Below are positions 6,214 through 59,897 of a stretch of DNA of 64,000 nucleotides, in pieces (within the stretch, counting starts at the first letter, position 1; every line of letters begins with the position of its first letter). The position numbers and the translations under genes were made by a program. The stretch is from Kaistia sp. 32K (GTDB taxonomy: Bacteria; Pseudomonadota; Alphaproteobacteria; Rhizobiales; Kaistiaceae): contig NZ_AP024269.1 in assembly GCF_016629525.1 (NCBI RefSeq), forward strand, positions 4,414,001 through 4,478,000, given 5' to 3'. The notes beneath the pieces are model-generated. The model was not told where the DNA came from and ran no database searches. It worked only from the letters and a program-made list of their open reading frames with translations.

Positions 6214-6321
6214 CGACGCGGCGGCCGGTATTCCGGCCGACCCGTCATCCCATCCAGACTTCCGAACAGAGTATCGGCCGCGCAAGCGACGCGCCGGCCG
6301 AAAAGACAAAGGACATCAGCC

Positions 6322-42265: not shown

Positions 42266-45200
42266 GTGAGACATTTTGAGAGCGGAAGGGGCTACGGCCA
42301 TCGCCAGCAGAACCGCAGGGACACCGCCATCGGGCGGATGGCGGACACGTCTTGGGCGTCAGGCGAGGCTTCGGTTTCGGGCTGGCGCACCGCCCTCCTC
42401 GGCAGCGCCGCCGCCGGCGCGATGATCCTGGCCATGGGCGCTCCCGCCTGGGGCGCCTGCATCGACGATGGCACGACGCGCAACTGCACCGGCGACCTCG
42501 CGGGCGGCGTCAGCATTGACGAGACCCAGCCGATCACCAAGCTGACCGTGGCGGCCCCGACCGGCGACATCACGCCGGAAGAAGGCGTCGCGGGCATCCG
42601 CTTCCTCTCGAACGGCGCCGTCACCATCGACAGCAATACCGGCTCCTTCGGGATCCACGCGACGGGCGAGGACGCCGACGGCATCAAGCTGCAGAGCTTC
42701 GAGGACGGCAACGGGAACATCGGCGACATCACGGCCAACCACACCGGCAAGATCACCTCCGACGAGGGGTTCGGCGTCTGGGCGGAGACGGATGGCGCGA
42801 TCTCGCTGACGACCAACGGCGACATTGAGGCCGGCAAGGACGCGATCAACCTGCATGGCACGATGGGCGGCCTGGTCACCATCGACGTCACCGGCGACCT
42901 GACCTCGACCGGCGGCGCCGGCATCGCCGCCTCGACCAATGGCAGCATCACGGAAAAGAGCCGCGGCGAGATCAACGCCGCGACGAACGGCATCGCGCTG
43001 CAGAGCTTCGAGACCGGCGCCGTCACGATCGACCACGGCGGCGACATCAATGCGCTCAGCGGCCACGGCATCTATGCCTCCGGCAATGGCACCGTCACCT
43101 CGACGAGCACCGGCGACATCCACGCCGGGTCGGACGGCATCCATCTGGAAGGTCACGGCTACGGAAGCCCGATGATCCTTTCGCATACCGGCGCGATCAC
43201 GGCCGATGCAGGCTACGGCGTCTATGCCGACGCCCTCGTCAATGTCGACGTCCGGGTCAATGGCGCGATCGACGCCGGCGGCGACGGCATCTTCGCCAAT
43301 TCGAGCCAGGGATCGACCACCGTCGATCACAAGGGCGGCTCGCTGATCGCCCGCAAGGGCGACGGCATCGTCGCCAAGTCGCCGAACGGCGCGGTCATCG
43401 TCACCAATGCGGGCACGCTCCAGGCCAAGGGTTCCGGCATCTACGCGGAAAGCGGCTCCGGCCCCGTGACGGTCGGGCAGACGGGTTCGCTCGAATCCTT
43501 CGAAGGCAAGGGCATTTATGCCGCCTCCGGCAACGGCAATGTCGAGATCACCACCGACGGCACGGTGACGAGCAAGCTCGACGCCGTCACGGCGCAATCG
43601 GGCGGCGGCTCCGCCAAGTTCACCCAGGGCGGCGACGTCACCTCCTATGAGGGCAAGGGCATCGTCGTGACGTCGGGCGCCAGCTCGGCGACGCTGACGG
43701 GATCCGGCGCCATCACGTCCAAGGGCGACGCGATCACCGTTTCCAGCAGCACCAACGCCACGGTCAACCGCACCAGCGGCGCGATCGAATCCACCAACGG
43801 CACCGGCATCAAGGTCAGCGCCATCGGCGGCACCGCCTCGGTCACCAATAGCGGCAAGATCACCGCCTATCAGGACGGCATCCGCTCGGAATCGACCTAC
43901 GGCAACACGATCAACCAGACGGGCGCCATCACCGCCTCGAACGGCGCCGGCATCTGGGCGACGTCCGGGACCGCCGCCGTCTCGGTCACCTCGAACGGCG
44001 CGATCGAGAGCAAGCTGACCGGCATCCACGCCAAGACCGGCAGCGGTAGCGTCACCGTCGCGCAGACCGGCACCGTCACCTCGAACGCCGGCAAGGGCAT
44101 CGACGCCTATACGCCGAACGGCGCCGTGACCATCGGCACCGGCAAGGTCGTCGCCAAGCTGGACGGCATCACCGCCACCAACGAGAGCGGTGACGACGTG
44201 AAGATCACCAGCGCCGGCGTCACCTCCTATGACGGCGCCGGCATCCTGGCGTCGTCCGCGACCGGTGAGATCACCATCACCAACAACGGCGCCGTCACGT
44301 CGCAGCTGGAAGGCATCAAGGCGACGAGCCTCGGCGACAGCACCGTCTCGATCGAACAGAACGGCGACCTGACCTCCTATTCGAAGACCGGCATTACCGC
44401 CTGGTCGGCGACGGGCGCGATCAACGTGACCGGCACCGGCGCCATCACGGCCGAGCTCGACGGCATCAAGGTCGGCAATGAGGGCTACGGCAAGATCACC
44501 ATCGACCGGACCGGCGACATCACGGCCTACAAGGGCCGCGGCATCATCGCCTCGTCCACCGATGGCGAAATCTCGGTCAAGAGCGCCGGCAAGCTGGTCG
44601 CGGAAACCGACGGCATCGTCGCCACCAATGTCGGCTCCAACAAGGTCAGCGTCACGCAGGAAGGCGACCTGACCGCCAACAAGGGCACCGGCATCGTCGC
44701 CTCGTCCACCACCGGCGAGGTCGTGGTCTCCAGCACCGGCACGCTCATCGCCGATCTCGACGGCATCGTCGCCACCAACCTCGGCGACACCAAGGTCAGC
44801 GTCACGCAGAACGGCAACCTGACCGCCTACAAGGGCACCGGCATCGTCGCCACCTCCACCACCGGCGAGGTGAAAGTCACGCAGACCGGCGTTCTGCTGG
44901 CGGATCTCGACGGCATCGTCGCGACCAATGTCGGCGAGACGGCCGTCACGGTCGACGCCGGGAGCATCACCGCCAACAAGGGCACCGGCATCATCGCCCA
45001 GTCCTCGCTGGGCGCCATCAAGGTCACCAGCGTCGGCGACATCTTCGCCGATCTCGACGGCATCATCGCCAAGAACGAGGGGACCCGGTTCGTCAGCGTC
45101 TCCTCCCGCAACATCACCGCCACCAATGGCACCGGCATCGTCGCGACGTCGGCGCTCGGCGCCATCACCGTCGTCAGCGCCGGCAACATCACCGCCAAGG

Positions 45201-47101
45201 CGGACGGCATCTATGCCGCCAATGCCAGCGACGACGGCACGGTCTCGGTCACGCATGGCGGCGGCACCATCACCACCGACGAGGGCGACGGCATCCATGC
45301 CGAGACCGTCAACGCGGATATCGACGTCACCATCGACGGCGACATCAAGGCGGCGCGCGACGGCATCCGCCTGACCAGCTATGGCGACCAGACGGTCACC
45401 ATCGACGGCGGCTCGGTGCAGGGCGGCGCGGGCTTCGCCGGCGTCAACTTCGACGGCGGCCACCTGAACTGGCTCACCAACAACAAGGGCGGCGATATCC
45501 GCAGCGCCGACGGCATCAACGGCCTCGCCATCTCGGCGCATGACAGCGACACGACGATCGTCAACAACGGCACGATCACCGGCAATGTCATCCTGAGCGA
45601 CTGGACGAACCGCTTCGACAACGGCCCGGACGGCATCTTCAACATGGGCGACACCGTCCATCTCGGCGCCGGCAACACGCTGACCAACAACGGCGTGGTG
45701 ACGATCGGCGGCGACGCCATCGCCACGACGGCGCTGAACGGCTCCTTCGTCAACGGCGCCGCCGGCACGCTGAAGATCGACGTCGACCTCGCCCATTCGA
45801 CCGCCGACCGGCTCGACGTCTCGGAGAATGCCAGCCTCGCCGGCTCGCTCGGCCTGCACCTGACGACGCTCGGCACGTTCGGACAGACCTTTACGGTCCT
45901 GACGGCCGAGAACATCGCCACCAACGGGCTGACGGTCTCCAATCCGCTGGTGCAGTACCAGATCAACTCGGACAGCGATCACCTCGACCTGACGGTCGCC
46001 GGCTACGACTATCTGGCCCAGGGCCTGAACGCGAACGGCAAGGTGCTCGGCAGCTACTTCAACAGCACGATCGGCCATCTGCCGGCGCTCGATCCGATCG
46101 GCCTGGCGCTCCTGAACCTGACCACGATGGACGACGTCAATAACGCCTACAACCAGCTCTCGCCGGACGCCTATCTGAACGAGCAGATGACGGCGGTCCA
46201 GGATTCGCTCGGCTTCGCCACCAGCATGCTGAGCTGCAAGGTGCGCGACGGCGCCTATGCCTTCAACGCCGAGGGCGAATGCGCCTGGGGCCGCGTCGGC
46301 TACCGCACCTTCGACCGCGAGACGACGGCGGAGAACGCCGGCTTCGACCGCACCAGCTGGGAACTGGCCGGCGGCGCGCAATACGCCGTCAAGGACGACG
46401 TCCGCGTCGGCTTCGCCGTCGCGGCGGGCACCTCGAAGACCACCGGCGCCAGCGGCGCGACCAGCGACGGCAAGCGGCTCGAAGGCGGCCTGATCGTCAA
46501 GTACGTCCCCGGCCCGCTCACCCTCGCGGCAGCGGTCTCGGGCAGCTATGGCTGGTACGACAGCGAGCGCTCCGTCCGGTTCGGTGATTTCAACGAAGCG
46601 CTGAACAGCAAGCCGGAAGCCGGCTCGCTCAACGCACGGCTCCGCGCCGCCTACGATCTCGGCAACGACACGATCTACATCCGCCCGCAGATCGAGGGCA
46701 ACGCCACCTATCTCTACCAGGCGGCGTTCTCGGAGACCGGCGGCGTCGCGGCCGTCTCGGTCGACAGCGGCTCGCAGACCGTGTTCAGCGTCGCGCCGGA
46801 AGTGGAAGTCGGCGGACAGGTCATCACCGCCGGCGGCACGATGATCCGTCCCTACGTCAAGGGTGGCGTCACGGCGTTCTCCAGCGACAGCTTCGCGCTC
46901 AACGCGCGCTTCGTCGCCGACACCTCGAACACCAGCGACTTCACCGTCACCAGCAGCACCGACCGGCTGCTCTGGAACACCTCGGTGGGCGTCGACCTCC
47001 TGTTCGAGAACGGCAACACGGTGCGCGCCTTCTATGACGGCAATTTCGGCCAGACCTCGACCGAGAACGCCTTCGGCCTGAAGGCCAGCCACAACTTCTG
47101 A
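42266..47101 (+). CDS. Autotransporter adhesin with beta-helix repeats and C-terminal barrel
   Basis: 1611 residues from a GTG at 42266 (GGGGG upstream). An extended N-terminal region leads to a signal sequence (about residues 39-64, ending GAPAWGA-CI). The passenger (65-1310) consists of short repeated strands that should form a right-handed beta-helix, with a basic unit of about 25 residues and a double unit of 50 (DGI...GTGI). Some double units are nearly the same at DNA level (period 150 nt at 44531, 44681, 44831). The last ~298 residues (from SLGFATSMLSC) form an autotransporter barrel with a C-terminal aromatic residue (HNF). The passenger is poor in cysteine. A surface role in attachment or biofilm is likely. 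The terminator at 47120 follows. Confidence 0.93.
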   Translation: MRHFESGRGYGHRQQNRRDTAIGRMADTSWASGEASVSGWRTALLGSAAAGAMILAMGAPAWGACIDDGTTRNCTGDLAGGVSIDETQPITKLTVAAPTGDITPEEGVAGIRFLSNGAVTIDSNTGSFGIHATGEDADGIKLQSFEDGNGNIGDITANHTGKITSDEGFGVWAETDGAISLTTNGDIEAGKDAINLHGTMGGLVTIDVTGDLTSTGGAGIAASTNGSITEKSRGEINAATNGIALQSFETGAVTIDHGGDINALSGHGIYASGNGTVTSTSTGDIHAGSDGIHLEGHGYGSPMILSHTGAITADAGYGVYADALVNVDVRVNGAIDAGGDGIFANSSQGSTTVDHKGGSLIARKGDGIVAKSPNGAVIVTNAGTLQAKGSGIYAESGSGPVTVGQTGSLESFEGKGIYAASGNGNVEITTDGTVTSKLDAVTAQSGGGSAKFTQGGDVTSYEGKGIVVTSGASSATLTGSGAITSKGDAITVSSSTNATVNRTSGAIESTNGTGIKVSAIGGTASVTNSGKITAYQDGIRSESTYGNTINQTGAITASNGAGIWATSGTAAVSVTSNGAIESKLTGIHAKTGSGSVTVAQTGTVTSNAGKGIDAYTPNGAVTIGTGKVVAKLDGITATNESGDDVKITSAGVTSYDGAGILASSATGEITITNNGAVTSQLEGIKATSLGDSTVSIEQNGDLTSYSKTGITAWSATGAINVTGTGAITAELDGIKVGNEGYGKITIDRTGDITAYKGRGIIASSTDGEISVKSAGKLVAETDGIVATNVGSNKVSVTQEGDLTANKGTGIVASSTTGEVVVSSTGTLIADLDGIVATNLGDTKVSVTQNGNLTAYKGTGIVATSTTGEVKVTQTGVLLADLDGIVATNVGETAVTVDAGSITANKGTGIIAQSSLGAIKVTSVGDIFADLDGIIAKNEGTRFVSVSSRNITATNGTGIVATSALGAITVVSAGNITAKADGIYAANASDDGTVSVTHGGGTITTDEGDGIHAETVNADIDVTIDGDIKAARDGIRLTSYGDQTVTIDGGSVQGGAGFAGVNFDGGHLNWLTNNKGGDIRSADGINGLAISAHDSDTTIVNNGTITGNVILSDWTNRFDNGPDGIFNMGDTVHLGAGNTLTNNGVVTIGGDAIATTALNGSFVNGAAGTLKIDVDLAHSTADRLDVSENASLAGSLGLHLTTLGTFGQTFTVLTAENIATNGLTVSNPLVQYQINSDSDHLDLTVAGYDYLAQGLNANGKVLGSYFNSTIGHLPALDPIGLALLNLTTMDDVNNAYNQLSPDAYLNEQMTAVQDSLGFATSMLSCKVRDGAYAFNAEGECAWGRVGYRTFDRETTAENAGFDRTSWELAGGAQYAVKDDVRVGFAVAAGTSKTTGASGATSDGKRLEGGLIVKYVPGPLTLAAAVSGSYGWYDSERSVRFGDFNEALNSKPEAGSLNARLRAAYDLGNDTIYIRPQIEGNATYLYQAAFSETGGVAAVSVDSGSQTVFSVAPEVEVGGQVITAGGTMIRPYVKGGVTAFSSDSFALNARFVADTSNTSDFTVTSSTDRLLWNTSVGVDLLFENGNTVRAFYDGNFGQTSTENAFGLKASHNF
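44531..45130 (+). repeat. Tandem ~150-nt repeats inside the autotransporter passenger
   Basis: Units starting with AAGGGC(A/C)CCG or close to it occur at 44531, 44681, 44831 and 44978, so the period is 150, 150 and 147 nt. Each codes for 49-50 residues. Nucleotide likeness is highest between the 44681 and 44831 units. Confidence 0.85.
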
Positions 47102-47119
47102 CAACGCCCCGCCAAACAG

Positions 47120-47153
47120 AAAGCCCCGGAACAAAGGTTCCGGGGCTTTTTTT
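47120..47153 (+). terminator. Strong intrinsic terminator after the autotransporter gene
   Basis: A 13-bp stem (AAAGCCCCGGAAC with GTTCCGGGGCTTT), AAAG loop and a run of T. The A-rich 5' side means it can also serve the convergent - operon. Confidence 0.9.
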
Positions 47154-47175
47154 GTTTTGAGGTTACAGGTCCTGC

Positions 47176-48663
47176 CTAGTGCACCGAGGCATACATGATC
47201 TGTTCCTGCGTCACGTCGAGCGGCGAGAATTCCTCGACGATGCGGCCCTGGCGGCAGACCAGGATGCGATCGGAAAGGGCGAGGATTTCCGGTAGGTAGG
47301 ACGAGATGACGACGACCGCCAGGCCCTGGTCGGCCAGCTCCTCGATCAGCGCGTGGATCTCCGCCACCGCGCCGACGTCGACGCCGCGCGTCGGCTCGTC
47401 GAAGATGACGAGCTTCGGCTTCTGCACCAGCGCCTTGCCGATCACCACCTTCTGCTGGTTGCCGCCGGAGAGCTCGATGACGCGGGCCTCCGCGTCGATG
47501 CTGCGGATCGCAAGCTTCGGGCTCCAGATCTCCAGGAGCGCCTTCATCTCCTTGTGGCTCACGACCGGCAGCCGTTCGAGGCCGGCCGCCAGCAGGCCGG
47601 AATAGAGGTTCTCGGCGATCGACATCGTCTCGAAAAAGCCCTCCAGCTTGCGGTCCTCGGTGACGTAGACGATGCCGTCGCGCACCGCCTCGCGCGGCGT
47701 CGCATAGCGCACCAGCTCGCCGCGATATTCGATCGAGCCGCCGCGCAGGAAATTGCGCTTGTAGACGCCGGCGATGATCTTCGCCGTCTCCGTCCGGCCG
47801 GAGCCGACCAGCCCGAAAATGCCGGTCGTCTGCCCCTCGAAGATCGAGAACGACGTGTTGCGGACCAGCGCCCCCATCGAGATGTCCTCGACCGACAGGA
47901 TTTTTGCGCCCGGCCGGCGGACCGTCTGGCGCAGCCGCGCGCCCTCGACGGCGGGACGGCCCACCATCGCCTGCACGATCTTCGCCTGGTCGAAATTCGC
48001 GGCGAGGTCGGTCACGACCTTCTCGCCATCGCGAAGGATGGTGATCCGGTCCGCGATCTCGAGCGCCTCTTCGAGCGCATGGCTGATGAAGACGATCGTC
48101 ACCCCGCGTGCCTTCAACCTGGCGACGAGGGCGAAGAAATGCCGCCGCTCCTCGGGTGTTAACGTCGCGGTCGGCTCGTCGAAGATGATGATCTTCGCGT
48201 TCAACCGAACCGCGCGGGCGATCTCGACCATCTGCCGTTTGGCGGCGCCGAGCGTCGAGACGTTGGCGGTCGGGTCGACGGTGAAGTTCAGCGATTGCAG
48301 GAACTGCTGCGCCGCGATGGTGATGCCGCGCAGCCGGTTGAACGCCCGCTCGTGGCCGAGATAGAGGTTCTGCGCCACGGTCATCGAGGGCACCAGGCTC
48401 GTCTCCTGGAACACCATGGCGATGCCCTGCTTGAGTGCGTCGGCCGGACCGGCGAAGCGGACCTCCCTGCCCCCATAGACCAGCGCGCCGGAGCTCGGCT
48501 CGATCACGCCGGCGAGCATCTTGGAGAGCGTCGACTTGCCCGCGCCGTTCTCGCCGAGCAGCGCATGCACCTCGCCGGCGCGGAGATCGAAATCGATCGG
48601 ATGGACGGCGATATTGCCGTGATAGGCCTTCGAGATCGCCTTCGTCTGCAGCACGACGGTCAT
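47176..48663 (-). CDS. Ribose/galactose-type ABC importer ATPase with two ATP-binding domains
   Basis: 495 residues from the ATG at 48663, which overlaps the stop of the SMP-30 gene. Domain 1 has Walker A GENGAGKST (near 39-47), LGAAKRQMVEIARAV and IIIFDEPTATLT; domain 2 has GLVGSGRTE, the signature ELSGGNQQKVVIGKAL and DEPTRGVDVGAVAEIH. It is the last gene of a five-gene operon and drives the two permeases upstream. It resembles but does not closely match the ATPase at 32.0-33.6 kb. Confidence 0.92.
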   Translation of the reverse strand: MTVVLQTKAISKAYHGNIAVHPIDFDLRAGEVHALLGENGAGKSTLSKMLAGVIEPSSGALVYGGREVRFAGPADALKQGIAMVFQETSLVPSMTVAQNLYLGHERAFNRLRGITIAAQQFLQSLNFTVDPTANVSTLGAAKRQMVEIARAVRLNAKIIIFDEPTATLTPEERRHFFALVARLKARGVTIVFISHALEEALEIADRITILRDGEKVVTDLAANFDQAKIVQAMVGRPAVEGARLRQTVRRPGAKILSVEDISMGALVRNTSFSIFEGQTTGIFGLVGSGRTETAKIIAGVYKRNFLRGGSIEYRGELVRYATPREAVRDGIVYVTEDRKLEGFFETMSIAENLYSGLLAAGLERLPVVSHKEMKALLEIWSPKLAIRSIDAEARVIELSGGNQQKVVIGKALVQKPKLVIFDEPTRGVDVGAVAEIHALIEELADQGLAVVVISSYLPEILALSDRILVCRQGRIVEEFSPLDVTQEQIMYASVH

Positions 48664-49733
48664 TGCGGCTCTCCCTTGCCGAGATCGACGATCAGCCCGG
48701 CTCCCGTTACCGTCGCCAGCACCGAGTCCCCGGTTTCCAGCACCGAGGTCAGGCCGTGCCGCGTGCCGTCCGAGCGGCTGTGGAAGCTCTGGACGGGCTG
48801 CAGTCCGGCATCGAGCCGGACCGCGAGGCCATAGGAGCGCGACGGCGCCCAGGGCTTGTGCACGCCCATGGTGCGCACGGCGCCGCATTGCAGCGGTTCG
48901 AGGAAGCTGGATCCGGAAGAAAGCGCCGGCGCGATCCAGTTTTGCCGCTCGACGGTTTCCAGCATGTCGCGGCGAAAACGATCCTCCTGCAGCACGAACT
49001 CGATCAGCCGGTTGCGCGGCGCGAAGACGGCGAGCCAGAAGCCGCCGTCGCGCGCGGCGGAAAGCCGGCCGGCATAGCCCGGGATCCGCGTCAGCACGGG
49101 CGCCGGCCGCTTGCCGGCTTCGAGGCGCACGAGACGATGGGCAAAGGCCTCGCTGACATGGATCGTCCCGTCCGGGCCGGCATGGACGCCGGATGGCCAA
49201 GCGAGATCCCGGGCCAGAAGCGTCCCTGCGCCGCTGGAAATATCGAGCTTCCAGACCGAGCCGGTGGCGCGCTTCTCCATCAGATCCACCACCCAGTCGG
49301 AAGGCGCGTGCCGGGCCGAGCCCTGCGCCACCACGATCGTCGTCGCGTCGAGCACGGCGATCGCGGTCGGCGAGACGAGCGGCTCCGATCCCAGGCGATC
49401 GAAGGTCCGCCCCTCGCTCGCGCCATCATGGAGGACGATCCGGCCGCTTTCGAGCGCCACGACCAGCGTCTCGTCCGTCAACGCCGCAAGCGCGCTCACC
49501 GGCGCGTCGAAGCGGGCGAGTTCGCGTGTCCCCCCGCCTTCCAGAGCATGAACGAAATTGCCGGCCGAAAAGACCGGCCGCCCCGCCCAGAACAGCAGAT
49601 TGTCGGGCGCCTCGTGCTCAAGGCGGACCGGCGCTTCCTCCAGCGCCGTGTTCGGCTTGAAGGCGCCGTCATAGGGCGGAATGGTGATGGCGCGGCCGCG
49701 GAACGGGTCGAGAATGCGATCGAGCAGCCTCAT
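48660..49733 (-). CDS. SMP-30/strictosidine synthase-like beta-propeller protein
   Basis: 357 residues from the ATG at 49733, overlapping the fusion gene by 4 nt. Propeller-type repeats are seen (PSGVHAGPDGTIHVSEAFAHRLVRL, GRLSAARDGGFWLAVFAPRNRLIEFVL). The family includes gluconolactonases and strictosidine synthase-like lactonases or hydrolases. There is no signal peptide, so it should be cytoplasmic. It is a paralogue of the C-terminal half of the upstream fusion protein (the segment on the 50-carbon side, DGGYWMAWLGMRTPSFDLAL, is the counterpart of DGGFWLAVFAPRNRLIEFVL). It may open a lactone made from the imported sugar. Confidence 0.82.
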   Translation of the reverse strand: MRLLDRILDPFRGRAITIPPYDGAFKPNTALEEAPVRLEHEAPDNLLFWAGRPVFSAGNFVHALEGGGTRELARFDAPVSALAALTDETLVVALESGRIVLHDGASEGRTFDRLGSEPLVSPTAIAVLDATTIVVAQGSARHAPSDWVVDLMEKRATGSVWKLDISSGAGTLLARDLAWPSGVHAGPDGTIHVSEAFAHRLVRLEAGKRPAPVLTRIPGYAGRLSAARDGGFWLAVFAPRNRLIEFVLQEDRFRRDMLETVERQNWIAPALSSGSSFLEPLQCGAVRTMGVHKPWAPSRSYGLAVRLDAGLQPVQSFHSRSDGTRHGLTSVLETGDSVLATVTGAGLIVDLGKGEPQ

Positions 49734-51853
49734 GTCGCCGCTCCCCAATAGGCGTTCCAGCCGGTCCAGTTCGGGTCGGCGCCGGGAATGGCGATCCGGC
49801 CGATCCGGTTGTTGAGGATGCCGCCGATATAGAGATGGCCCTTGTGCTCGCGCATCGAGGTGACCATCGGATGGCTGGCGCCGCCGAGATCGCCGAGCGT
49901 TGAAAGGATCCGGCCGCTCTCGTCGAACTTCACCACGCCGCCGGTGTTGATGTTGGGAAACAGCCACTCGTCCTGCGGCAGGCGGCGGGTCATGCGCTTG
50001 CGCATGCCGGGATCGCGCAGCGCGAGATCGAAGCTCGGCGTGCGCATGCCGAGCCAGGCCATCCAGTAGCCGCCGTCCGAGGCGCGGTTGATGTTGTCGG
50101 GATAGCCGGGCATGTCGCGGATGACGGTCTCCAGCGTTCCGGCCTTCGGCCCCTCGATCCAGTAGCGATGGACGGCGCAGGCCCAGGATTCGGCGATCAG
50201 CAGCGACTGGCCGTCATGGGCGAGGCAGACGCCATTGGCATAGCGCAGCTTTTCGAGCACCGTCCGCGTCTTGCCGGTCGCGGGATCATAGACCAGCAGC
50301 CGTCCCGTCGGCCGGCTCTCGATCGAATCAAGCGCCCATTCATGCGCGTCGTAGCGGGTGGTCGAATCCGTGAACCACACCCGGCCCTGGCGGTCGATGT
50401 CGCAATCATTGGGATCGCGCAGGCGGGCGTCGTCGACGACCGAGAGCAGCGATCGCCGCGTCTCGGTCGACAGCTCGCGGACGCCGCCGTCCGGCGCAAC
50501 CGAATAGAGCCCCATCGCGCCGACGCAGGTCTTGATCGAGCCGTCGCGATCGATCGCGAGCCCGAGCGGGAAGCCGCCGATATGGGCGAAGACTTCCGAA
50601 CGCCGGTAATCGGGCGCGAAATAGCGGACGATCTCGCCATGCCGCGTGCCGGCATAGAGATTGTCGTCGCGGTCGAGGACGATGTCCTCCGGCCCTTCCA
50701 GTTCGCCGAGGCCGATCGCCTCGGCGCCGGCGAGCGCGTTATCGAGCGCATAGGGCGTGCCGGAACCTGGCACGGCGGAAATGGCCGGCTGCATCGCATG
50801 GTGCACCGGCGCGACATAGACTTCCGAGACCACCTTCTGCCGGTTCTTCAGCCAGCGGACGTCGACGACGATCGCGAGCGCCAGCATCAGGCCGAGGATC
50901 ATCTGGTTGGTGCCGGTGCCGGCGCCGAGCCGGATCAGGCCGTTGTTGATGATGAGCACGGCGACGGCGCCGATCAGCCCCTTGGCGATCGAGCCGCGGC
51001 CGCCGCCGAGGCTATTGCCGCCGACGACGGCGGCGGTCAGCGCCAAGAGCTCCAGCCCGAGGCCGGAGCCCGGCCCGACGCCGGAGAGCCGCGCGGCGAA
51101 CAGGAAGCCTGCCATGCCGCAGGCGACGCCGGAGACGACATAGGTCAGGAACACGGTGCGGCGCACCGGGATGCCGATATTGTAGGCGGAGCGGCGCGCG
51201 CCGCCGACGGCGCTGATGTGCCAGCCGATGCGCGAGCGCGAGATGACGAGATGCGCGAGGAGCGTGAAGGCGAGCGCGATCAGCGCGCTGACCGGAATGC
51301 CGGCGAGCGAGCCGACGCCCAGCCAGTCGAAACTGTCGGAATAGAACTGCGAGCTCTGGATCTGCTTGCCATACTGGATGATCAGGATGTCGTAGAGCGA
51401 GCGGCCGATGATCAGCGTCACCAGCGTGGTCAGGAAGGCGCGCAGCCGCAGATAGCCGACGAGATAGCCGTTGAAGGCGCCGAACAGGCCGCCGGCGCCG
51501 ACCGCCGCCGCGAAGGCGAGCCAGGGCGATCCCTCGCCGATATAGATGACGGCGAGCGCAGCGAAGGCGGCGAGCGCGAAGATCGAGCCGACGGAGAGAT
51601 CGATGCCGCCGCCGATGATCACCACCGTCAGGCCGATGACGACGAGCAGGAACTCGCCCAGTTGCCGCGACGTGTCGAGCAGGCTGCCGGCGCTGAAGAA
51701 GCCCGGAATCAGCGTCCCGAAGATGGCGATGACGGCGACGAGAAAGGCGAAGGGGACCAGATTGTCGGCCCAGTTCTTGACGAGGATCTCGCCGACAAGA
51801 TGGGTTGGAATCCGGTTGTAGCGAAATCGGGTGACGGCCTCGCGCAGGGACAT
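49730..51853 (-). CDS. Fusion of RbsC-type ABC permease and SMP-30/gluconolactonase-like propeller
   Basis: 707 residues in one open frame. Residues 1 to about 340 form a full RbsC-type permease (VVIIGGGIDLSVGSIFALAAF, AVGGARRSAYNIGIPVRR, VGGNSLGGGRGSIAKGLIGA). A linker (about 341-370) leads to a complete SMP-30-like domain (about 371-700: EGPEDIVLDRDDNLYAGTRHG, LRDPNDCDIDRQGRVWFTDSTTRYD, YANGVCLAHDGQSLLIAESW, MPGYPDNINRASDGGYWMAW). The last motif is typical for the strictosidine-synthase-like branch. RbsC-type permeases end in the cytoplasm, so the propeller should act on the sugar as it enters. A sequencing error is unlikely, since both halves are full length and in the same frame. Confidence 0.9.
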   Translation of the reverse strand: MSLREAVTRFRYNRIPTHLVGEILVKNWADNLVPFAFLVAVIAIFGTLIPGFFSAGSLLDTSRQLGEFLLVVIGLTVVIIGGGIDLSVGSIFALAAFAALAVIYIGEGSPWLAFAAAVGAGGLFGAFNGYLVGYLRLRAFLTTLVTLIIGRSLYDILIIQYGKQIQSSQFYSDSFDWLGVGSLAGIPVSALIALAFTLLAHLVISRSRIGWHISAVGGARRSAYNIGIPVRRTVFLTYVVSGVACGMAGFLFAARLSGVGPGSGLGLELLALTAAVVGGNSLGGGRGSIAKGLIGAVAVLIINNGLIRLGAGTGTNQMILGLMLALAIVVDVRWLKNRQKVVSEVYVAPVHHAMQPAISAVPGSGTPYALDNALAGAEAIGLGELEGPEDIVLDRDDNLYAGTRHGEIVRYFAPDYRRSEVFAHIGGFPLGLAIDRDGSIKTCVGAMGLYSVAPDGGVRELSTETRRSLLSVVDDARLRDPNDCDIDRQGRVWFTDSTTRYDAHEWALDSIESRPTGRLLVYDPATGKTRTVLEKLRYANGVCLAHDGQSLLIAESWACAVHRYWIEGPKAGTLETVIRDMPGYPDNINRASDGGYWMAWLGMRTPSFDLALRDPGMRKRMTRRLPQDEWLFPNINTGGVVKFDESGRILSTLGDLGGASHPMVTSMREHKGHLYIGGILNNRIGRIAIPGADPNWTGWNAYWGAAT

Positions 51854-51910
51854 CCGAAATTCCAGCTCTGGTGGGTAGGAACGATCAGGCCGAACCGGCC
51901 TGAAGAAAGA

Positions 51911-51938
51911 CGAGCGCGCCGGCGGGCCGGCGCGCTCG
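51911..51938 (-). terminator. Intercistronic hairpin after the receptor gene
   Basis: A perfect 13-bp stem (CGAGCGCGCCGGC with GCCGGCGCGCTCG), 2-nt centre. On the - strand it is followed by TCTTTCTTC. It lies between the receptor and the fusion permease and probably reduces read-through or protects the receptor mRNA. Confidence 0.6.
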
Positions 51939-51955
51939 CTTGAAAACGTCGGCGG

Positions 51956-52987
51956 TTACAGCTTCGCGGCCGCCTCGATCTGCTTCTGGCTCCAGCAGGT
52001 GCCGGGGGTCAGGTCGGCCTTGGTGCGGGCGCGTTCCTGCGTGTAGAGGTAGCGCGCCTTGTCGCCCGGCTTGTCGCTACCCTGCAGCAGCAGCTTGATC
52101 GCCGTGACGACGTCCTGCGACTGGCGAGGCAGCTCGCTGGTGACGATGGCGCCGAACGTGCCGTCCTCGAGCAGCTTGCAGTCGATCTCCTCGCCGCCGC
52201 CGGTGGTGACGAGGAAGACCTTGCCGCTGAGGCCGGCGTCGCGGATCGCGGCCGCCGTGCCCTGCGCGGTCGCATCCCAGAAGTCGATGATGCCGCAGAC
52301 GTCGGGATTCTGCTGCAGCAGCGTCGTCGCGGCGTTGCGCGCCGTCGTGGCGTCCCAGTTCGAATCCGGCTGGCCGACGATCTTGAACTCGGGGTTCTTG
52401 GCCAGAACCGCCTGCACGCCCGCCCATTGGTCGAGGCTCGAGGCATTGACCTGGTCGCCCTGGATCACGCCGATCTTCTTGCTAGAATCCGGGCCGCAGC
52501 CCTTGATGACGGCTTCCGTCTCCAGCTCGCCGAGGCGCTTCCAGTCGGATCCGGCGAAGACATCGGAGGCGAAGTTCGACGGGTTGTCGAGCTGGATGAC
52601 GAAGATGCCGGCGTCCTGCGCCCGCTTGTACAGGCGGCTGTAGGAGTTGATATCGGGCGACTGAACGATCAGCACGTCGGGCTTGTTGGCCGAGGAGATC
52701 AGGTCGGTGATCGCCTGCGCGCCGGCATCGACGCTCCAGTTGGGATCGCGGGTTTCCCAGATGCCGCCGAACGCCTTGACCTCCTCGCCGATGAAGTGGT
52801 TCCAGCCCTGGGCGAGATCGAAGCCCATGGTCATCGGAACCAGCACGACGCGCTTGCCCTTCAGCGCCGCCTCATAGGCAGCCGGCCCGGGGTTCGTGGT
52901 GTCCTCGGCCGACGCGGCGAGCGTTGCGCCACCCAGAATGGCGCTGGCCGACAGGGCTGCCAGCAAGCCTCGTTTCCAGAAGTTCAT
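51956..52987 (-). CDS. Ribose-type ABC substrate-binding protein
   Basis: 343 residues with a signal peptide (residues 1-27, FWKRGLLAALSASAILGGATLAASA-ED). Type 4 periplasmic binding protein pattern: VVLVPMTMGFDLAQGWNHFI, AQAITDLISSANKPDVLIVQSPDIN, KIGVIQGDQVNASSLDQWAGVQAVL, NPDVCGIIDFWDATAQGTAAAIRDAGL. Cys pairs (KGCGPDS, DVCGII, EIDCKLL, GTCWSQ) may form disulfides in the periplasm. It is the second gene of the operon. It supplies the permeases with a sugar-like ligand; the SMP-30 partners suggest one that gives a lactone. Confidence 0.88.
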   Translation of the reverse strand: MNFWKRGLLAALSASAILGGATLAASAEDTTNPGPAAYEAALKGKRVVLVPMTMGFDLAQGWNHFIGEEVKAFGGIWETRDPNWSVDAGAQAITDLISSANKPDVLIVQSPDINSYSRLYKRAQDAGIFVIQLDNPSNFASDVFAGSDWKRLGELETEAVIKGCGPDSSKKIGVIQGDQVNASSLDQWAGVQAVLAKNPEFKIVGQPDSNWDATTARNAATTLLQQNPDVCGIIDFWDATAQGTAAAIRDAGLSGKVFLVTTGGGEEIDCKLLEDGTFGAIVTSELPRQSQDVVTAIKLLLQGSDKPGDKARYLYTQERARTKADLTPGTCWSQKQIEAAAKL

Positions 52988-53044
52988 GTCCAGTCCCTTT
53001 CTCCCGTTCGGCCAGTATCTTGGCCATTCTTGAAAGTATTGATT

Positions 53045-54031
53045 TCAGATGTCGCCCTGCTGGCTGGTCTGCTCGTCGCGCGGATTGAGTTTTCCGTCGA
53101 GGATGATCGCGGCCAGAAGGATCGATGCCTTGATGAGGTTCTGATAGATGTTGGGCAGGTCGAGGATGGTCATGCCGTTGAGCAGGATGCCGATCAGCAA
53201 AGCGCCGACCAGCACGCTGCGCATGCCGCCCTTGCCGCCGGAAAGGCCGATGCCGCCGATCACCACCACCAGCACGACGTCGTAGAGCAGGGTCGAATTG
53301 ACGATGCGGGTGTTCATGCTCTGCAGGCTGACGGCCGTCGCCAAGCCCGCGAGCCAGGCGAGCAGCGCGCTGACGATGTATTGCAGCACGGTCAGCGGCC
53401 GCACCGCGATGCCCATCGTCCGTGCGGCCTGGTAGTTGTCGCCCATCCAGTAGATGAACCGGCCGAACTTGGTGTAGCGCAGGAACAGCCAGCCGATCAG
53501 CAGCGCGCCGCCGAACAGCCAGACGTCGAGCGGGATGCCTGCCGGGCGCGCCTGGCCGAGTGACAGCAGCGCCGAGGCATCCTTCGGGATGTAGATCACG
53601 TCCTGCGCCAGCACCTGCGAGCGGACGAAGCCGAAGACGAAGGCGCTGGAGGCGAGCGTCGCGAACAGCGCCGGGACGCTGGCATAAGCGACCAGAAAGC
53701 CATTGGCGGCGCCGATCGCCACGACGATGACGAACACGATCGCGCTGGCGCCGGCGAGGCTCCAGCCATGCTGCAGCAGCTCCAACTGCAGCGCGGCGGA
53801 GACGACCATGACCGCGACCATCGAAAGGTCGATGCCGCGGCCGATCACCACCAGCCCCATGCCGATGGCAAGTATTCCCAGCACCGAAATGCTGCGCACG
53901 ATGGCGATGAAGTTGGCCGGCGTCCGAAACCCTTCGAGCGTCAGCGCAAAGCTTGCGAACAGGAATAGAGCCAGGATCAGGACGATCCGTTCCTGCGTCA
54001 AAGACTGGAGAAAACCCCGAGAGCGCGCCAC
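53045..54031 (-). CDS. Ribose-type ABC importer permease (RbsC-like)
   Basis: 328 residues from a GTG at 54031, with AAAGG upstream. About ten membrane segments; landmarks are IGMGLVVIGRGIDLSMVAVMV, GDNYQAARTMGIAVRPL and VIGGIGLSGGKGGMRSVLVGAL. It is the first gene of the operon and differs from the fusion permease, so the channel is probably a heterodimer of the two. The ATPase gene is the last of the operon. Confidence 0.9.
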   Translation of the reverse strand: MARSRGFLQSLTQERIVLILALFLFASFALTLEGFRTPANFIAIVRSISVLGILAIGMGLVVIGRGIDLSMVAVMVVSAALQLELLQHGWSLAGASAIVFVIVVAIGAANGFLVAYASVPALFATLASSAFVFGFVRSQVLAQDVIYIPKDASALLSLGQARPAGIPLDVWLFGGALLIGWLFLRYTKFGRFIYWMGDNYQAARTMGIAVRPLTVLQYIVSALLAWLAGLATAVSLQSMNTRIVNSTLLYDVVLVVVIGGIGLSGGKGGMRSVLVGALLIGILLNGMTILDLPNIYQNLIKASILLAAIILDGKLNPRDEQTSQQGDI

Positions 54032-54285
54032 GATGCACTACCTTTCACGAGCCGCAAGCGACCGTGCCAGATCGGAACCACGCGATTCTTCGAACGGGAT
54101 GATCTCGGTAACGTCTAGCTTTGCTCCCTCATGAATAGACATTCCGCCCGATGCTTTGCAGGCCGGGATTTCCAAGTTTGTCTGAAGTTTGAGATTATTT
54201 TTGCAATAGATCGACGGTGCGAACGCTGCGGAAAGCGATCGCCAGGGCGCGATATGCATGAATGTGCGGCCGCGATCGCCGTCTT

Positions 54286-54345
54286 CCTGGAACCTCCCCC
54301 TTGAGGGGAGGTCAAAAACGCCGACGCGTTTTCGGGAGGGGGTGC
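54286..54345. repeat. Repeat A, copy 2 (shortened)
   Basis: Matches the first ~60 nt of the copy at 14897-15044 (AACCTCCCCCTTGAGGGGAGG, then AACGC...GCGTTTTCGGGAGGGGG). The closing GGGAGGGTTCAGG of the element is found at about 54546-54558, after repeat B. Confidence 0.75.
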
Positions 54346-54381
54346 CCTCCCCTTTGAGAGACCTTCGCGCATCCCTGTCCC

Positions 54382-54533
54382 GCCGTCATGCGGCGCTCGA
54401 TTTTCCTCATCCTGAGGTGCCCGAGCGCAGCTCGGGCCTCGAAGGACGCACGGTCGCGGTGCCATCCATCGATGGCACGGCCGCTCTGCGTGCTTCGAGA
54501 CGGCCCTGCGGGCCTCCTCAGCATGATGAGGGT
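54382..54533. repeat. Repeat B, copy 2 (with extra inner palindrome)
   Basis: Nearly the same as 15073-15196, but with about 28 extra nt in the centre that form a palindrome (GTGCCATC...GATGGCAC). It lies inside the remains of a repeat A element. Confidence 0.8.
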
Positions 54534-54568
54534 GGTGCTTTGCAGAGGGAGGGTTCAGGCACCCTGCC

Positions 54569-54979
54569 CTAGCTTGTGACCTCGAATTCCGGGTCGACCG
54601 GAATGCCGAGCGCCGTGACGATCCGGTTCGCCTCGGAGGCCATGCCGATGACGGCGATGAGATCGCCATACTGGGCGTCGGTCATGCCCTTGGCGCGCGC
54701 CGCCGCCGTGTGCGAGTGGATGCAGTAGCCGCAGCCATTCACCGTCGAGACGGCGACGTAGATCAGTTCCTTGGTCAGCGGATCGAGCGCCGACGGGGTG
54801 ATCATGACCTCCTTCAGGCCATTCCAGGTGCGTTCCAGCGTGGCCGGATCATTGGCGAGGCCGCGCCAGAAATTGTTGACGAAATCGGAGCCGCGCGTCG
54901 CGCGGATATCGTCGAACACTGCCTTGACGCGCGGCGACTGATCGACGTCGGAATCCGTCCAGAGCTTTACCGTTGCCAT
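54569..54979 (-). CDS. AhpD-like carboxymuconolactone decarboxylase-family protein
   Basis: 136 residues from the ATG at 54979. The AhpD/CMD motif CGYCIHSHTAAARAKGM (CxxC, then His three residues on) marks a peroxidase-type helical protein; the two Cys and the His are the redox site. Such proteins often act as alkylhydroperoxidases with the help of a thiol partner. It follows a DszC/SfnB-like gene by 138 nt in the same direction and may protect against peroxide made by uncoupled flavin oxygenases; that link is inferred. Confidence 0.83.
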   Translation of the reverse strand: MATVKLWTDSDVDQSPRVKAVFDDIRATRGSDFVNNFWRGLANDPATLERTWNGLKEVMITPSALDPLTKELIYVAVSTVNGCGYCIHSHTAAARAKGMTDAQYGDLIAVIGMASEANRIVTALGIPVDPEFEVTS

Positions 54980-55117
54980 TATGTCCACTTGCTTGAGGGT
55001 CGCGCCGTCGCGGGCCCGCGCGGGCGGTTCGCCATCGGAAGACGGCGCTCCCCCCAGCAAGCCTCATCCCGCGCTCCGGTTCAAGCCGATCGGCGGCGCT
55101 TTGGCGACGACGCGTCG

Positions 55118-56353
55118 CTAGAAGAAGCCGCCGGCCTGGGGAACGTCGGTGCCGTTCAGGAGCTGGTCGCCGACCACCTGCGCCTTATAGGCGAGCGGGT
55201 TGTGGCTCAAGATGGTGCGGATGTTGCGCCAGTGCCGGTCGAAATTGTAGCGGCGCGAGGTCGCCGAGGCGCCGCCGACATTGAAGATCCGCTCGGCCGC
55301 CGAAAGCGCGATCGGCCCGAGCGCCACCTGACCGGCCGCGACCGTCACCGCCGCATGCTCCAGGATCCGGTGCAGCTCCGCGTCCTCGCGCTGGATCGCG
55401 GCGAAGCTCCCGTCCAGCGTGCGGGCGGCATGCGCCGTGAGCTGATCGGCCACCTGGCTCGCCGCCGCGATCTCACCGATCTCGGCCTGGATGAAGAGAT
55501 CGGTCCGGGCGCTGCCGGCCGGACTGTGCGTCGTCGGCCGCGCCTTTTCCCGCGCATGCTGGACCGCGTCGGCGAGCACGTTGCGGACGATCCCCGCGAT
55601 ACAGGCGGCCAGGAACAGCTGGCGGAAGGTCGAGGCGTGCCGCGCGGCCGGGCTCGGCCCGCCGGCGCCTGCGCGCCGGACCTCCTGTTCGTGCACGGCA
55701 ACATTCTCATAGAGGATGCTGCCGCTCGCCGTCAGCCGCTGCCCCATGCCGTCCCAGTCGTCGAGAATGGTGACGCCGTCGCGGCCGACCGGCAGCACCA
55801 CGCGGGCGGGATTGCCGTCCTCGTCCAGCGCGCTGGTCGAGAAGATGTCGGCGTAGAGCGTGCCCGTGCTGTAGAACTTGCGGCCGTTCAGGCGATAGCC
55901 GTCGCCGTCGCGCGAGAGCCGCGCCGAGACCTCGGCCGGTCGCGGCGTCTCCAGCTCGGTATGCGCGCCGCCGAAGAGAACCCCGGCCAGCGCCTTCTCC
56001 GCATAGTCGCGCGCCTCCGGCGAGGCCGGGTTGGCGAGCGCCGCTTCGCCCTGGTTGAAATGGGTGCGGAGCGCGTGGGCGACGTTCGAATCCGCCGACG
56101 CCACCGCCGTGATCGCCTCGATCAGGTCGGCGATCGATCCCCCCGGCCCGCCCAGGCCGGAGGGAACGCGCAGGATCGTGATGCCCGACCGGCGCACCGC
56201 GTCGAAGGCCGCGAAGGGCAGCTCGCGATCGCGATCCCGCTCCGCCGCGCCGGCCGCGATGGTTGCCACCAGCTGCGGCAGGCCGGCGAGGATTTCCGCG
56301 CGGTCGACGGTGTGCGGGCGCGTCGCCGGCCCGGTGGAAGCGGCAGAACTCAC
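55118..56353 (-). CDS. Acyl-CoA dehydrogenase-like flavin monooxygenase (DszC/SfnB family)
   Basis: 411 residues. Landmarks: TILRVPSGLGGPGGSIADL (N-terminal domain), FGGAHTELE and YRLNGRKFYSTGTLYAD (central domain), and SRRYNFDRHWRNIRTILSHNPLAYKAQVVGDQLLNG (C-terminal bundle), the last typical of DszC/SfnB. It is like the protein at 6.3-7.6 kb. It overlaps the amidohydrolase upstream by 4 nt. It is probably an FMN-dependent oxygenase for an organosulfur or related compound. Confidence 0.85.
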   Translation of the reverse strand: MSSAASTGPATRPHTVDRAEILAGLPQLVATIAAGAAERDRDRELPFAAFDAVRRSGITILRVPSGLGGPGGSIADLIEAITAVASADSNVAHALRTHFNQGEAALANPASPEARDYAEKALAGVLFGGAHTELETPRPAEVSARLSRDGDGYRLNGRKFYSTGTLYADIFSTSALDEDGNPARVVLPVGRDGVTILDDWDGMGQRLTASGSILYENVAVHEQEVRRAGAGGPSPAARHASTFRQLFLAACIAGIVRNVLADAVQHAREKARPTTHSPAGSARTDLFIQAEIGEIAAASQVADQLTAHAARTLDGSFAAIQREDAELHRILEHAAVTVAAGQVALGPIALSAAERIFNVGGASATSRRYNFDRHWRNIRTILSHNPLAYKAQVVGDQLLNGTDVPQAGGFF

Positions 56354-57300
56354 TTGAGATGCGCCCCGAGGATCCGCTTCGCATTGCCGGAGGCGATCAG
56401 CGCCTGCTGTTCGGGCGAGAGCCCCGCGTCGGCGAACACCTTCTCCAGGATGGCGCGGCTGCCGCCCGGCCAGATCGGCCAGTCGGTGCCGAAGACGACG
56501 CGTTCGGCGCCCAGGATGTCGACCAGGAGGCGCACCACGGCCGGCTCGAGACCCATGATGTCGAAATAGACATTGGGCCGGCGTCCGGCGGCGCGCGCCT
56601 CGGCGCTGTACTCTTCGGTCTCGCCCGCCGCCAGCACCAGCGCGCCGGCGCCGATCGCGGTGAAGATCAGGTTCAGGTCCGGCAACTCGTCGAGCACGCC
56701 GCTGCGCAGGATGGAGAAGAACGCCGCGCCGTTGATGAGGCCGCGACCAAAACCATAGGCCGGTTCGCCGCCGCCGGCGCGCAGCGCATCGGAATTCGGC
56801 GCGCCGACCGGATGCACCAGGACGGGCGCCTTCAGCCTCGCCGCGACCTCCAGCACCGGGCGCACCGCCTCGATGCCCGGGAATTTCTGGTCGCGCGAGG
56901 AATCGATGACAATTCCGACATGGCCGAGCTCGGTGATGGCGCGCTCGGCTTCGCGCGCGGCGACCTCGCCGGCGAAGGCGTCGACGGTGGCGAGCGCCGC
57001 GAGCTGGCCCGGATGGCTGGCGACCGTCTCGGCGAGGAAATCGTTGATGCCGCGAATGGCGTCGATATCGGTCGGCCCTTCCGTGCCGAAGAAGCCTTCG
57101 ATCGTCGCGCTGAGAAGACGCAGCTTGACGTCGCCTTCCCGGCTTTCCTCGGCGAGCAGACCGGGATTGGTCATCCGGCTCCAGCGCGTGGTGCGCGTCT
57201 CGCGCTCGGCCTCGGTGAGCTCGGCCGGCAGCTCCGGCTTCCAGCTGGTGGGACGGATGTGGGCGTGGACGTCGATGATGTCCCAGGTAGAGCTAGCCAT
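56350..57300 (-). CDS. Amidohydrolase-family metal-dependent hydrolase/decarboxylase
   Basis: 316 residues, amidohydrolase 2 (TIM barrel) type. The N-terminal metal motif is IIDVHAHIRP (HxH), with further candidates HPVGAPN and the closing VVFGTDWPIWPGG, whose Asp completes the metal site. Family members hydrolyse or decarboxylate small acids and lactones. It lies between two DszC/SfnB-like genes, 3 nt from one and overlapping the other. It may act on the oxidised product of the monooxygenases. The exact reaction is unknown. Confidence 0.83.
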   Translation of the reverse strand: MASSTWDIIDVHAHIRPTSWKPELPAELTEAERETRTTRWSRMTNPGLLAEESREGDVKLRLLSATIEGFFGTEGPTDIDAIRGINDFLAETVASHPGQLAALATVDAFAGEVAAREAERAITELGHVGIVIDSSRDQKFPGIEAVRPVLEVAARLKAPVLVHPVGAPNSDALRAGGGEPAYGFGRGLINGAAFFSILRSGVLDELPDLNLIFTAIGAGALVLAAGETEEYSAEARAAGRRPNVYFDIMGLEPAVVRLLVDILGAERVVFGTDWPIWPGGSRAILEKVFADAGLSPEQQALIASGNAKRILGAHLK

Positions 57301-57303
57301 GTG

Positions 57304-58536
57304 TCAGGTCCGATCCGAGTTTGGTTCGAGAGAAGAATTCAGGTCGACGAGCGCCTGCAGGCGGCCGGCCACGTCGGCCGAAAGGCGACCGTTCAGGTGG
57401 TAGTCGGCGACGAAATGCTGCCGCCAGCGGGCGGGATCGTGCAGGGAGTGGACGCGGGCGTTGCGCCAGAAGCGACCGATGGCTTCCGGCGGCTCGCTGC
57501 CGTCGTCGACGAAATCGGCCAGCTCATTGCCGACCTCCGGTCCGAAGACGTAGGCGAGGCTCTTGGCCTCGTCGACGGCGAGCGCCGTCTCGACCAGAAG
57601 CGCCTCGTCGCGGAGTTCGAGCAGCGAGCGGTCGATCAACCGGGCGGCGCGAAGAACCAGCGCGCGGGCCGCGGCGCTGCGCGCCTCGAGGACGCCGAGA
57701 CGCTCGCCCAGCCCCCGCGCCGCGATGAAGTCGGGCGCGGCACGGGCCGCGAGACGCGTCGCCCCGGTGGCGCCGCCGGCGGCGATCGCTGCGTGGATCA
57801 GCTGGCTGCCGGCGAAGAGCGCCGCGAGCAGCGCCGGGTTCGCGCCGTCGCGATGGATGACGTGGTCGGCCTCGACATAGACATTGTCGAGCACGGTCGT
57901 GCCGCTGAACGTCCCCCGCTGGCCGAACGCGTCCCAGTCGGCCTGCACGTCGAGCCCCTCGGCGTCGCGATCGACATAGGCGACGAGGAAGCGCCCGTCG
58001 GGATCGACCGCGATGACCGGCACAACATGCGCCGTCAGCGCGCCGGTCGAGAAGAACTTCTTGCCGTTGACGCGGTATCCGAGTCCATCCGGAACGATCG
58101 ACGTGACGATGTCCCGGCGCGACTTCCGCCAGGGTTCGGCGAGTGCATTGCCGAAACGCGCGCCGTCCAGGATGCGCGGATAGAAATAGGCCTGCGTCCG
58201 CTCGCCGGCATGCTGGATGGTGTCGACGAAGTCGTAGTGGTTCTGCGGCACCTGGGCGAGCGACACGTCGGTGGCGCCGAGGATGAGAAACACCTCGATC
58301 AGCGTTTCGAACGGCAGCGCCGCGCCGCCATGGCGCTTCGGCACCTGGATGCCGAGAAGCCCCGAGGCTTCGAGCGCGCGGAGTTCCGCGACCGGCACGC
58401 GGCGTTCGCGGTCCACCTCCGCCGCGCTCCTCGACCACAATTCGGCGAGGGCCTGCGCGGCGTCGATCGCCTCGGCATGGGAACGGATCCGTCGCGCCGG
58501 AGCGACGGCGGGGCCTTCGGAAGGTCGATAGGTCAT
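57304..58536 (-). CDS. Acyl-CoA dehydrogenase-like flavin monooxygenase (DszC/SfnB family)
   Basis: 410 residues from the ATG at 58536; the frame is open further upstream, but that part overlaps the next gene and has no family likeness. Landmarks: LLGIQVPKRHGGAALPFETL, FGNALAEPWRKS, YRVNGKKFFSTGALTAHVVPV, FWRNARVHSLHDPARWRQHFVADYHLNG. The RVHSLHDP motif fits SfnB. It is the third family member in the window besides the orphan piece at 59.9 kb. It is in one operon with the LLM monooxygenase 7 nt upstream. Confidence 0.85.
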   Translation of the reverse strand: MTYRPSEGPAVAPARRIRSHAEAIDAAQALAELWSRSAAEVDRERRVPVAELRALEASGLLGIQVPKRHGGAALPFETLIEVFLILGATDVSLAQVPQNHYDFVDTIQHAGERTQAYFYPRILDGARFGNALAEPWRKSRRDIVTSIVPDGLGYRVNGKKFFSTGALTAHVVPVIAVDPDGRFLVAYVDRDAEGLDVQADWDAFGQRGTFSGTTVLDNVYVEADHVIHRDGANPALLAALFAGSQLIHAAIAAGGATGATRLAARAAPDFIAARGLGERLGVLEARSAAARALVLRAARLIDRSLLELRDEALLVETALAVDEAKSLAYVFGPEVGNELADFVDDGSEPPEAIGRFWRNARVHSLHDPARWRQHFVADYHLNGRLSADVAGRLQALVDLNSSLEPNSDRT

Positions 58537-58543
58537 GATGATC

Positions 58544-59887: not shown

Positions 59888-59897
59888 GCGGGAAGTC

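Follow-up and report, generated by a model that had tools for sequence, protein, structure and literature searches.

A single gene in the window, which here means the whole 64,000-nucleotide stretch that was analysed, encodes an RbsC-type (CUT2) permease joined to a C-terminal six-bladed propeller, and it occupies the third place in a cassette of fixed order: permease, binding protein, fusion, free propeller and ATPase. Among 78 distinct fusions, every fused propeller keeps an Asp-Asn pair at positions 586/587 (numbering of the window's fusion), and every accompanying free propeller lacks it. The cassette is tentatively read, with a probability that we put a little short of even, as a CUT2-derived five-gene importer of a non-sugar ester or lactone, whose fused propeller would hydrolyse the substrate on the cytoplasmic side. 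Should the propeller act on what is imported, the system would be an ABC importer that modifies its own cargo. Modification of the cargo during import is usually ascribed to phosphotransferase systems. The pairing of a putatively active and a dead propeller in all of the cassettes offers a way to test this through point changes in a single protein.

The fusion gene and its cassette

The features of the cassette and of one companion gene are as follows.

54569..54979, minus strand: CMD/AhpD-like protein, 136 aa, companion of the window's clade (PF02627)
53045..54031, minus strand: first, unfused RbsC-type permease, 328 aa (PF02653, 98.0 bits)
51956..52987, minus strand: periplasmic binding protein, 343 aa (PF13407, 131.7 bits), with Q187, W237, G263 and four conserved Cys
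51910..51939, minus strand: GC-rich 13-pair hairpin between the binding-protein and fusion genes (pattern scan only)
49730..51853, minus strand: fusion gene, 707 aa, a single open frame with an ATG start
50822..51853, minus strand: permease half of the fusion, residues 1–344 (PF02653), with predicted helices to residue 344
49733..50761, minus strand: propeller half of the fusion, residues 365–707, with the site E389, N482, N540, D586, N587
48660..49733, minus strand: free pseudo-propeller, 357 aa, with the site residues replaced (weak Str_synth match)
47176..48663, minus strand: RbsA-type double ABC ATPase, 495 aa (PF00005, two stretches)

The fusion frame contains no internal stop, and four Pfam domains were found in it above their cut-offs. 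BPD_transp_2 at residues 62–327 (117.2 bits, cut-off 26.8) assigns the N-terminal half to the CUT2 (RbsC-type) permeases. It is followed by SSL_N at residues 367–410 (52.5 bits, cut-off 18.9), Str_synth at residues 482–568 (76.6 bits, cut-off 25) and SGL (PF08450) at residues 460–602 (57.7 bits, cut-off 26.3); SGL, which scores lower than Str_synth, places the propeller at the domain level in the SMP-30/gluconolactonase family. The single 707-residue frame with a permease and then a propeller, as described in the sequence-only reading, is confirmed by the frame and these four domains. None of the NCBIfam models listed for the fusion protein reached its cut-off.

A search with the fusion protein gave 4365 significant matches (E ≤ 0.001) among 8000 candidates scored, and all four domains are present in each of the 120 of these 4365 that were listed, which are 69–100% identical to the query. 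Because the same architecture occurs in 120 of 120 listed relatives, the fusion is not regarded as an artefact. The stop or frameshift between the halves, which had been named as a possible refutation, was likewise discarded, as the same permease/propeller build also occurs in 52 full-length fusions; 26 further fusions are cut by locus ends.

The genome scan with the fusion as query kept at least 80 loci. The 89 fusion frames above 500 bits in all loci correspond to 78 distinct ones. The fusion query reached 46 of these, namely the window's own and those of 45 loci, and a free-propeller profile reached the other 32; the 26 incomplete ones break off within the permease half. The search for further permease/propeller fusions and their spread, as suggested at the outset, thus yielded many. 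In the 37 loci L018–L054, the fusion was found in 36, L048 being cut, and L052 holds the end of the fusion. Plasmid records contain 15 places that cover at least 80% of the fusion query with 45–81% identity.

The free propeller follows the fusion in all 78 cases, with a start overlap of −4 nt in 63 and −1 nt in 10. In the window, overlaps of 4 nt join the fusion to the free propeller (ATGA) and the free propeller to the ATPase. Among the 45 fetched loci (window excluded), the plain permease was found upstream in 42, the three misses lying, like those of the other components, at locus ends. The PF13407 binding protein and the double ATPase of a CUT2 importer operon are present in the window and in 44 and 43 of these loci, respectively. 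The cassette order is also kept in nine annotated plasmid loci and three more; among the annotated ones, the annotation ends before the ATPase in one, the place of the binding protein is called hypothetical in one, and the free-propeller gene is named 'hypothetical protein' or 'strictosidine synthase'. One further plasmid record carries no annotation. The cassette resembles the RbsABC-type (CUT2) importers in its PF02653 permease, PF13407 binding protein and double ATPase. However, it differs from them in having two unlike permeases, one of which bears a propeller, in the extra free propeller, and in the ligand-site positions of its binding protein. The hairpin is one of 7 sites of its type found in the region by the pattern scan, where 4.3 are expected, and no RNA element was found by Rfam at gathering cut-offs in 46900–55200.

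Among the hosts of the cassette are Alpha-, Beta- and Gammaproteobacteria as well as actinobacteria, with one record each from Amycolatopsis and a Mycobacteriaceae assembly. The copies of a Pantoea plasmid (L009) and of Yersinia proxima (L026) are 66% and 65% identical to the window's fusion, which suggests lateral transfer, and these gammaproteobacterial cassettes were probably transferred whole. The free-propeller profile at E ≤ 1e-15 gave matches in 10 of 41 relatives, 17 of 385 class genomes and 28 of 398 phylum genomes, some of which are weaker matches to other propellers. Below 1e-59 the corresponding numbers are 10 of 41, 10 of 385 and 11 of 398; the own genome is counted in each, and scoring in the class and phylum searches was limited to five candidates for any one genome. 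Of the 73 places matched by the fusion in its own genome, one is the fusion itself and 70 match its permease part; the remaining two, the free propeller and an SSL-type frame at another site, match its propeller part. This genome is very rich in CUT2-type permeases. A further permease of this type lies within the window at 33743–34606 (plus strand) and is 34% identical to the permease half.

The databases hold the fusion in numbers under the names 'ribose transport system permease protein' and 'SMP-30/gluconolactonase/LRE family protein'. No open-licence paper on a permease/propeller fusion was found by title or start of abstract, and reports elsewhere are possible.

Kinship and site residues of the propellers

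The fused propeller has the SSL_N and Str_synth domains and the six-bladed fold of an SSL-like propeller, and its best PDB match is TGW6 (8kg3). By sequence, it is strictosidine-synthase-like and nearest in the PDB to TGW6. The name of a gluconolactonase-like propeller, as given originally, was not borne out, since gluconolactonases are more distant from the protein than strictosidine-synthase-like proteins and TGW6 are. It differs from strictosidine synthase (2fp8) itself in that T665, which is invariant in 16 fusions, is aligned at the position of the catalytic Glu, which we take to be residue 309; strictosidine synthase activity was rejected on the basis of this residue. Hydrolases of the paraoxonase/DFPase/SMP-30 type match the window propeller more weakly in sequence (E of about 4e-4 for DFPase), and we know of no transporter fusion among them.

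The site positions were determined from motif and joint alignments and from the ligand list printed for TGW6. Positions 389–390, 482–483, 540 and 586–587 match the metal ligands of paraoxonase/DFPase-type propellers. In the 78 fused propellers, E389, D390, D483, D586 and N587 are each present in 78 and N540 in 77, and position 482 is N in 20 and D in 58. The fused propeller accordingly has the residues of a PON/DFPase-type site (E, N or D, N, D/N), and the lack of metal-binding residues, which had been considered as evidence against an enzyme, was not observed in the alignments.

Among the 78 free propellers, A, G or S stands at the D586 position throughout, and the N587 position has R (75), G (2) or H (1). 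Asn is found in 11 at the 540 position and in 10 at the 482 position, and the 389 position is Glu in 8 and D in 65. The only Pfam match of the window's free propeller at E ≤ 0.001 is a weak one to Str_synth (29.5 bits, cut-off 25), and SGL gave no match at this threshold. The residues of the site do not identify the free propeller as an enzyme of the superfamily. Its earlier description as a second free SMP-30 protein therefore holds for the fold and fails for the enzyme site, the residues of which are replaced; judged by its sequence, the free propeller is not a second enzyme, its site having been lost.

Standalone propellers outside cassettes (n = 34) have E in 32, N540 in 34, D586 in 32 and N587 in 30, and in the joint alignment with them the 25 sampled free propellers lack the site. 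Because these relatives keep the site, its loss is special to the free propeller. In a tree of 84 rows (25 fused, 25 free and 34 standalone) built by a quick method, each kind forms one group, with SH-aLRT values of 97, 100 and 99 for fused, free and standalone, respectively, which allows a single origin of each; the free propellers have longer branches. No CUT2 components were found in the flanks of the standalone propellers, many of these loci having only about 1.2 kb of flank.

TGW6 is reported to be a rice IAA-glucose hydrolase, which is an ester hydrolase (PMC10958001). No Ca was found in its crystal, yet added Ca stabilised the protein (PMC10958001). Of the ligands listed for TGW6 (PMC10958001), N167, N226 and N272 align with N482, N540 and N587 of the fusion, and the window's site set of E389, N482, N540 and N587 is that of TGW6. 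Since TGW6 has the same site set and showed no Ca in the crystal (PMC10958001), metal binding by the window propeller is doubtful. TGW6 is different from the window propeller in being a free plant protein without a link to a transporter, whereas the window propeller is fused to a permease.

The binding protein and flanking genes

The binding proteins of 45 cassettes (the window's and 44 from the loci) were aligned with 32 from control loci; the controls are not fully independent because they were picked by the cassette-protein profile and include several Pantoea near-copies. Marked changes are found at three positions, an Arg, an Asn and an Asp, which we take to be the sugar contacts of ribose- and allose-binding proteins. 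At the Arg position (Q187 in the window), Arg occurs in 0 of 45 cassette proteins, which mostly have Gln, against 31 of 32 controls. The Asn position (W237) is Asn in 0 of 45 and Trp in 44, against Asn in 27 of 32 controls, and the Asp position (G263) is Asp in 1 of 45 and Gly in 44, against Asp in 31 of 32 controls. The presumed sugar-contact residues of a CUT2 sugar importer are thus missing from the binding protein, for which no listed NCBIfam model reached its cut-off either. Four Cys are present in 45 of 45. As the ordinary CUT2 residues are lost, the substrate is probably no plain sugar, and we infer a non-sugar, more hydrophobic ligand.

Flanking genes were called using a codon-usage script, with a few frames missed or mis-set. 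The 84 same-strand flanking proteins of the 45 loci (window excluded; 25 of 89 families listed) include LysR (8), CMD (8), Zn-ADH (7), AMP-binding (5), SDR (5), CoA-transferase III (4), class-IV aminotransferase (4), Aldedh (3) and ECH (2), and no sugar-kinase family is among the 25 listed. For 47 proteins from 31 ordinary CUT2 loci (25 of 45 families listed), the families include LacI (4), PfkB (3), RbsD (3) and DeoR (3), and none of Zn-ADH, AMP-binding, SDR, CoA-transferase III, class-IV aminotransferase, Aldedh and ECH is listed; this control is weak because 22 of the 47 are binding proteins and the taxa differ.

A close CMD/AhpD homologue (E ≤ 1e-10 to either of two query proteins) is found in the window and in 12 of 12 fetched loci of clade A, which has N482, and in 0 of 33 loci of clade B, 8 of which have less than 3.5 kb on one side. 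Besides this gene, some clade-A loci contain a class-IV aminotransferase, a PIG3-type oxidoreductase and LysR, and ADH, ALDH, acyl-CoA ligase and CoA-transferase genes lie near the cassettes of clade B. No substrate pathway drawn from these neighbourhoods fits all cassettes of the two clades; the neighbourhoods vary, no gene specific for esters or lactones turns up repeatedly around the cassettes, and the Pantoea cassette adjoins sugar-type genes. The CMD companions of the Pantoea and Yersinia proxima cassettes are 90% identical to each other, and a Salipiger record (L167) outside the CMD comparison has an annotated CMD gene downstream. On a plasmid of Shinella sp. HZN7 (L014), the cassette start shares 1 base with a gene (5591–6916) whose annotation is degradative HMG-CoA reductase; mevalonate or mevalonate lactone is for this reason one candidate substrate.

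Topology and possible mechanisms

The fusion has four K/R in residues 1–22 and six K/R with no D/E in the loop 205–233, after which four hydrophobic segments (overlaps merged) are followed by RWLKNRQK. From this pattern of charge and hydropathy, the C-terminus is predicted to lie in the cytoplasm. The topology of RbsC agrees with this prediction, and the cytoplasmic end that had been assumed for the permease is to that extent supported; a periplasmic propeller is unlikely on the charge distribution. The count of membrane crossings is not certain because the predicted helix in the second segment after the loop is short (267–277) in the structure model. The pTM of the model is 0.61, which does not fix the orientation of the propeller, and the mean pLDDT of the linker residues 341–350 is 58. 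For the permease half, no solved relative was found by sequence at E ≤ 0.01; the VIA-align matches for the fusion were taken up by the propeller and are a scant test of the permease fold. As the ATPases of an ABC importer cap the cytoplasmic side, the propeller is more likely to sit beside them than at the inner mouth of the pore, where the sequence-only reading had placed it.

If the cassette is an importer with a hydrolase of its own, the binding protein would deliver a non-sugar ester or lactone, and this compound would pass through a heterodimer of the plain and the fused permease. The fused propeller, attached where the last helix ends in the cytoplasm, would then hydrolyse it to an acid (and alcohol), and the trapped acid would enter dehydrogenase and CoA-dependent pathways. 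The free propeller would probably have a structural or regulatory role, paired with the fused propeller, the plain permease or the ATPase. The active/dead pairs in 78 of 78 cassettes, the kinship with TGW6, the altered binding protein and the ADH- and CoA-type flanks count in favor of this mechanism. Against it, the conserved site could bind without catalysis, and the doubtful metal binding, the lack of a recurring ester/lactone gene and the surroundings of the Pantoea cassette were also counted. The coupling of import to the first catabolic step, as originally proposed, is plausible.

Another explanation, somewhat unlikely in our estimate, is that the propellers are regulatory or ligand-sensing, where the fused one would bind the substrate or product and shut the transporter (trans-inhibition) and the free one would be a switch subunit. 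Trans-inhibition is carried out by the regulatory domains of some other ABC importers. The dead partner, which is always present, makes this rival serious; the genes overlap, the site residues could serve binding, and no catabolic partner gene accompanies every cassette. However, the fused-propeller site is held as strictly as in the 34 standalone relatives, which fits catalysis better, and the closest solved relative, TGW6, is a hydrolase.

A stronger form of the importer with its own hydrolase, which we consider unlikely, is that the working hydrolase on one permease half and its dead sister are arranged pseudo-symmetrically below the heterodimeric channel, which would unite import and trapping in one machine. 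Such a machine would be the ABC counterpart of group translocation, and, if it exists, an ABC importer family would have left sugars for non-sugar esters or lactones with hydrolysis built in.

It is likewise unlikely that the propeller is a cytoplasmic hydrolase merely tethered near the source of its substrate, which would raise the local concentration without any coupling to the transport cycle. The weakly predicted linker and the orientation left open by the model would suit such a tether, but the halves are fused in 32 of 32 cassettes fetched via the free-propeller profile, five further strong matches lying outside this set. The database names imply a usual sugar importer that ends in a sugar lactonase; this is very improbable, since the three sugar-contact positions are lost and no sugar-kinase family is listed for the flanks, although the permease and ATPase are typical CUT2 members, SGL passes its cut-off and sugar-type genes lie beside the Pantoea cassette. 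The results suggest that both database names are misnomers for such proteins.

Other frames of the window lie on both sides of the cassette. A 1611-aa frame at 42266–47101 (plus strand), convergent with the cassette, has many repeated segments, and its C-terminal part looks by eye like an autotransporter barrel. The upstream cluster at 55118–60473 (minus strand) contains two SfnB-type acyl-CoA-dehydrogenase-like proteins and an amidohydrolase, and it perhaps serves organosulfur scavenging. The frame at 58544–60115 (minus strand) is luciferase-like by eye and is followed by frames resembling a peptide-type ABC importer.
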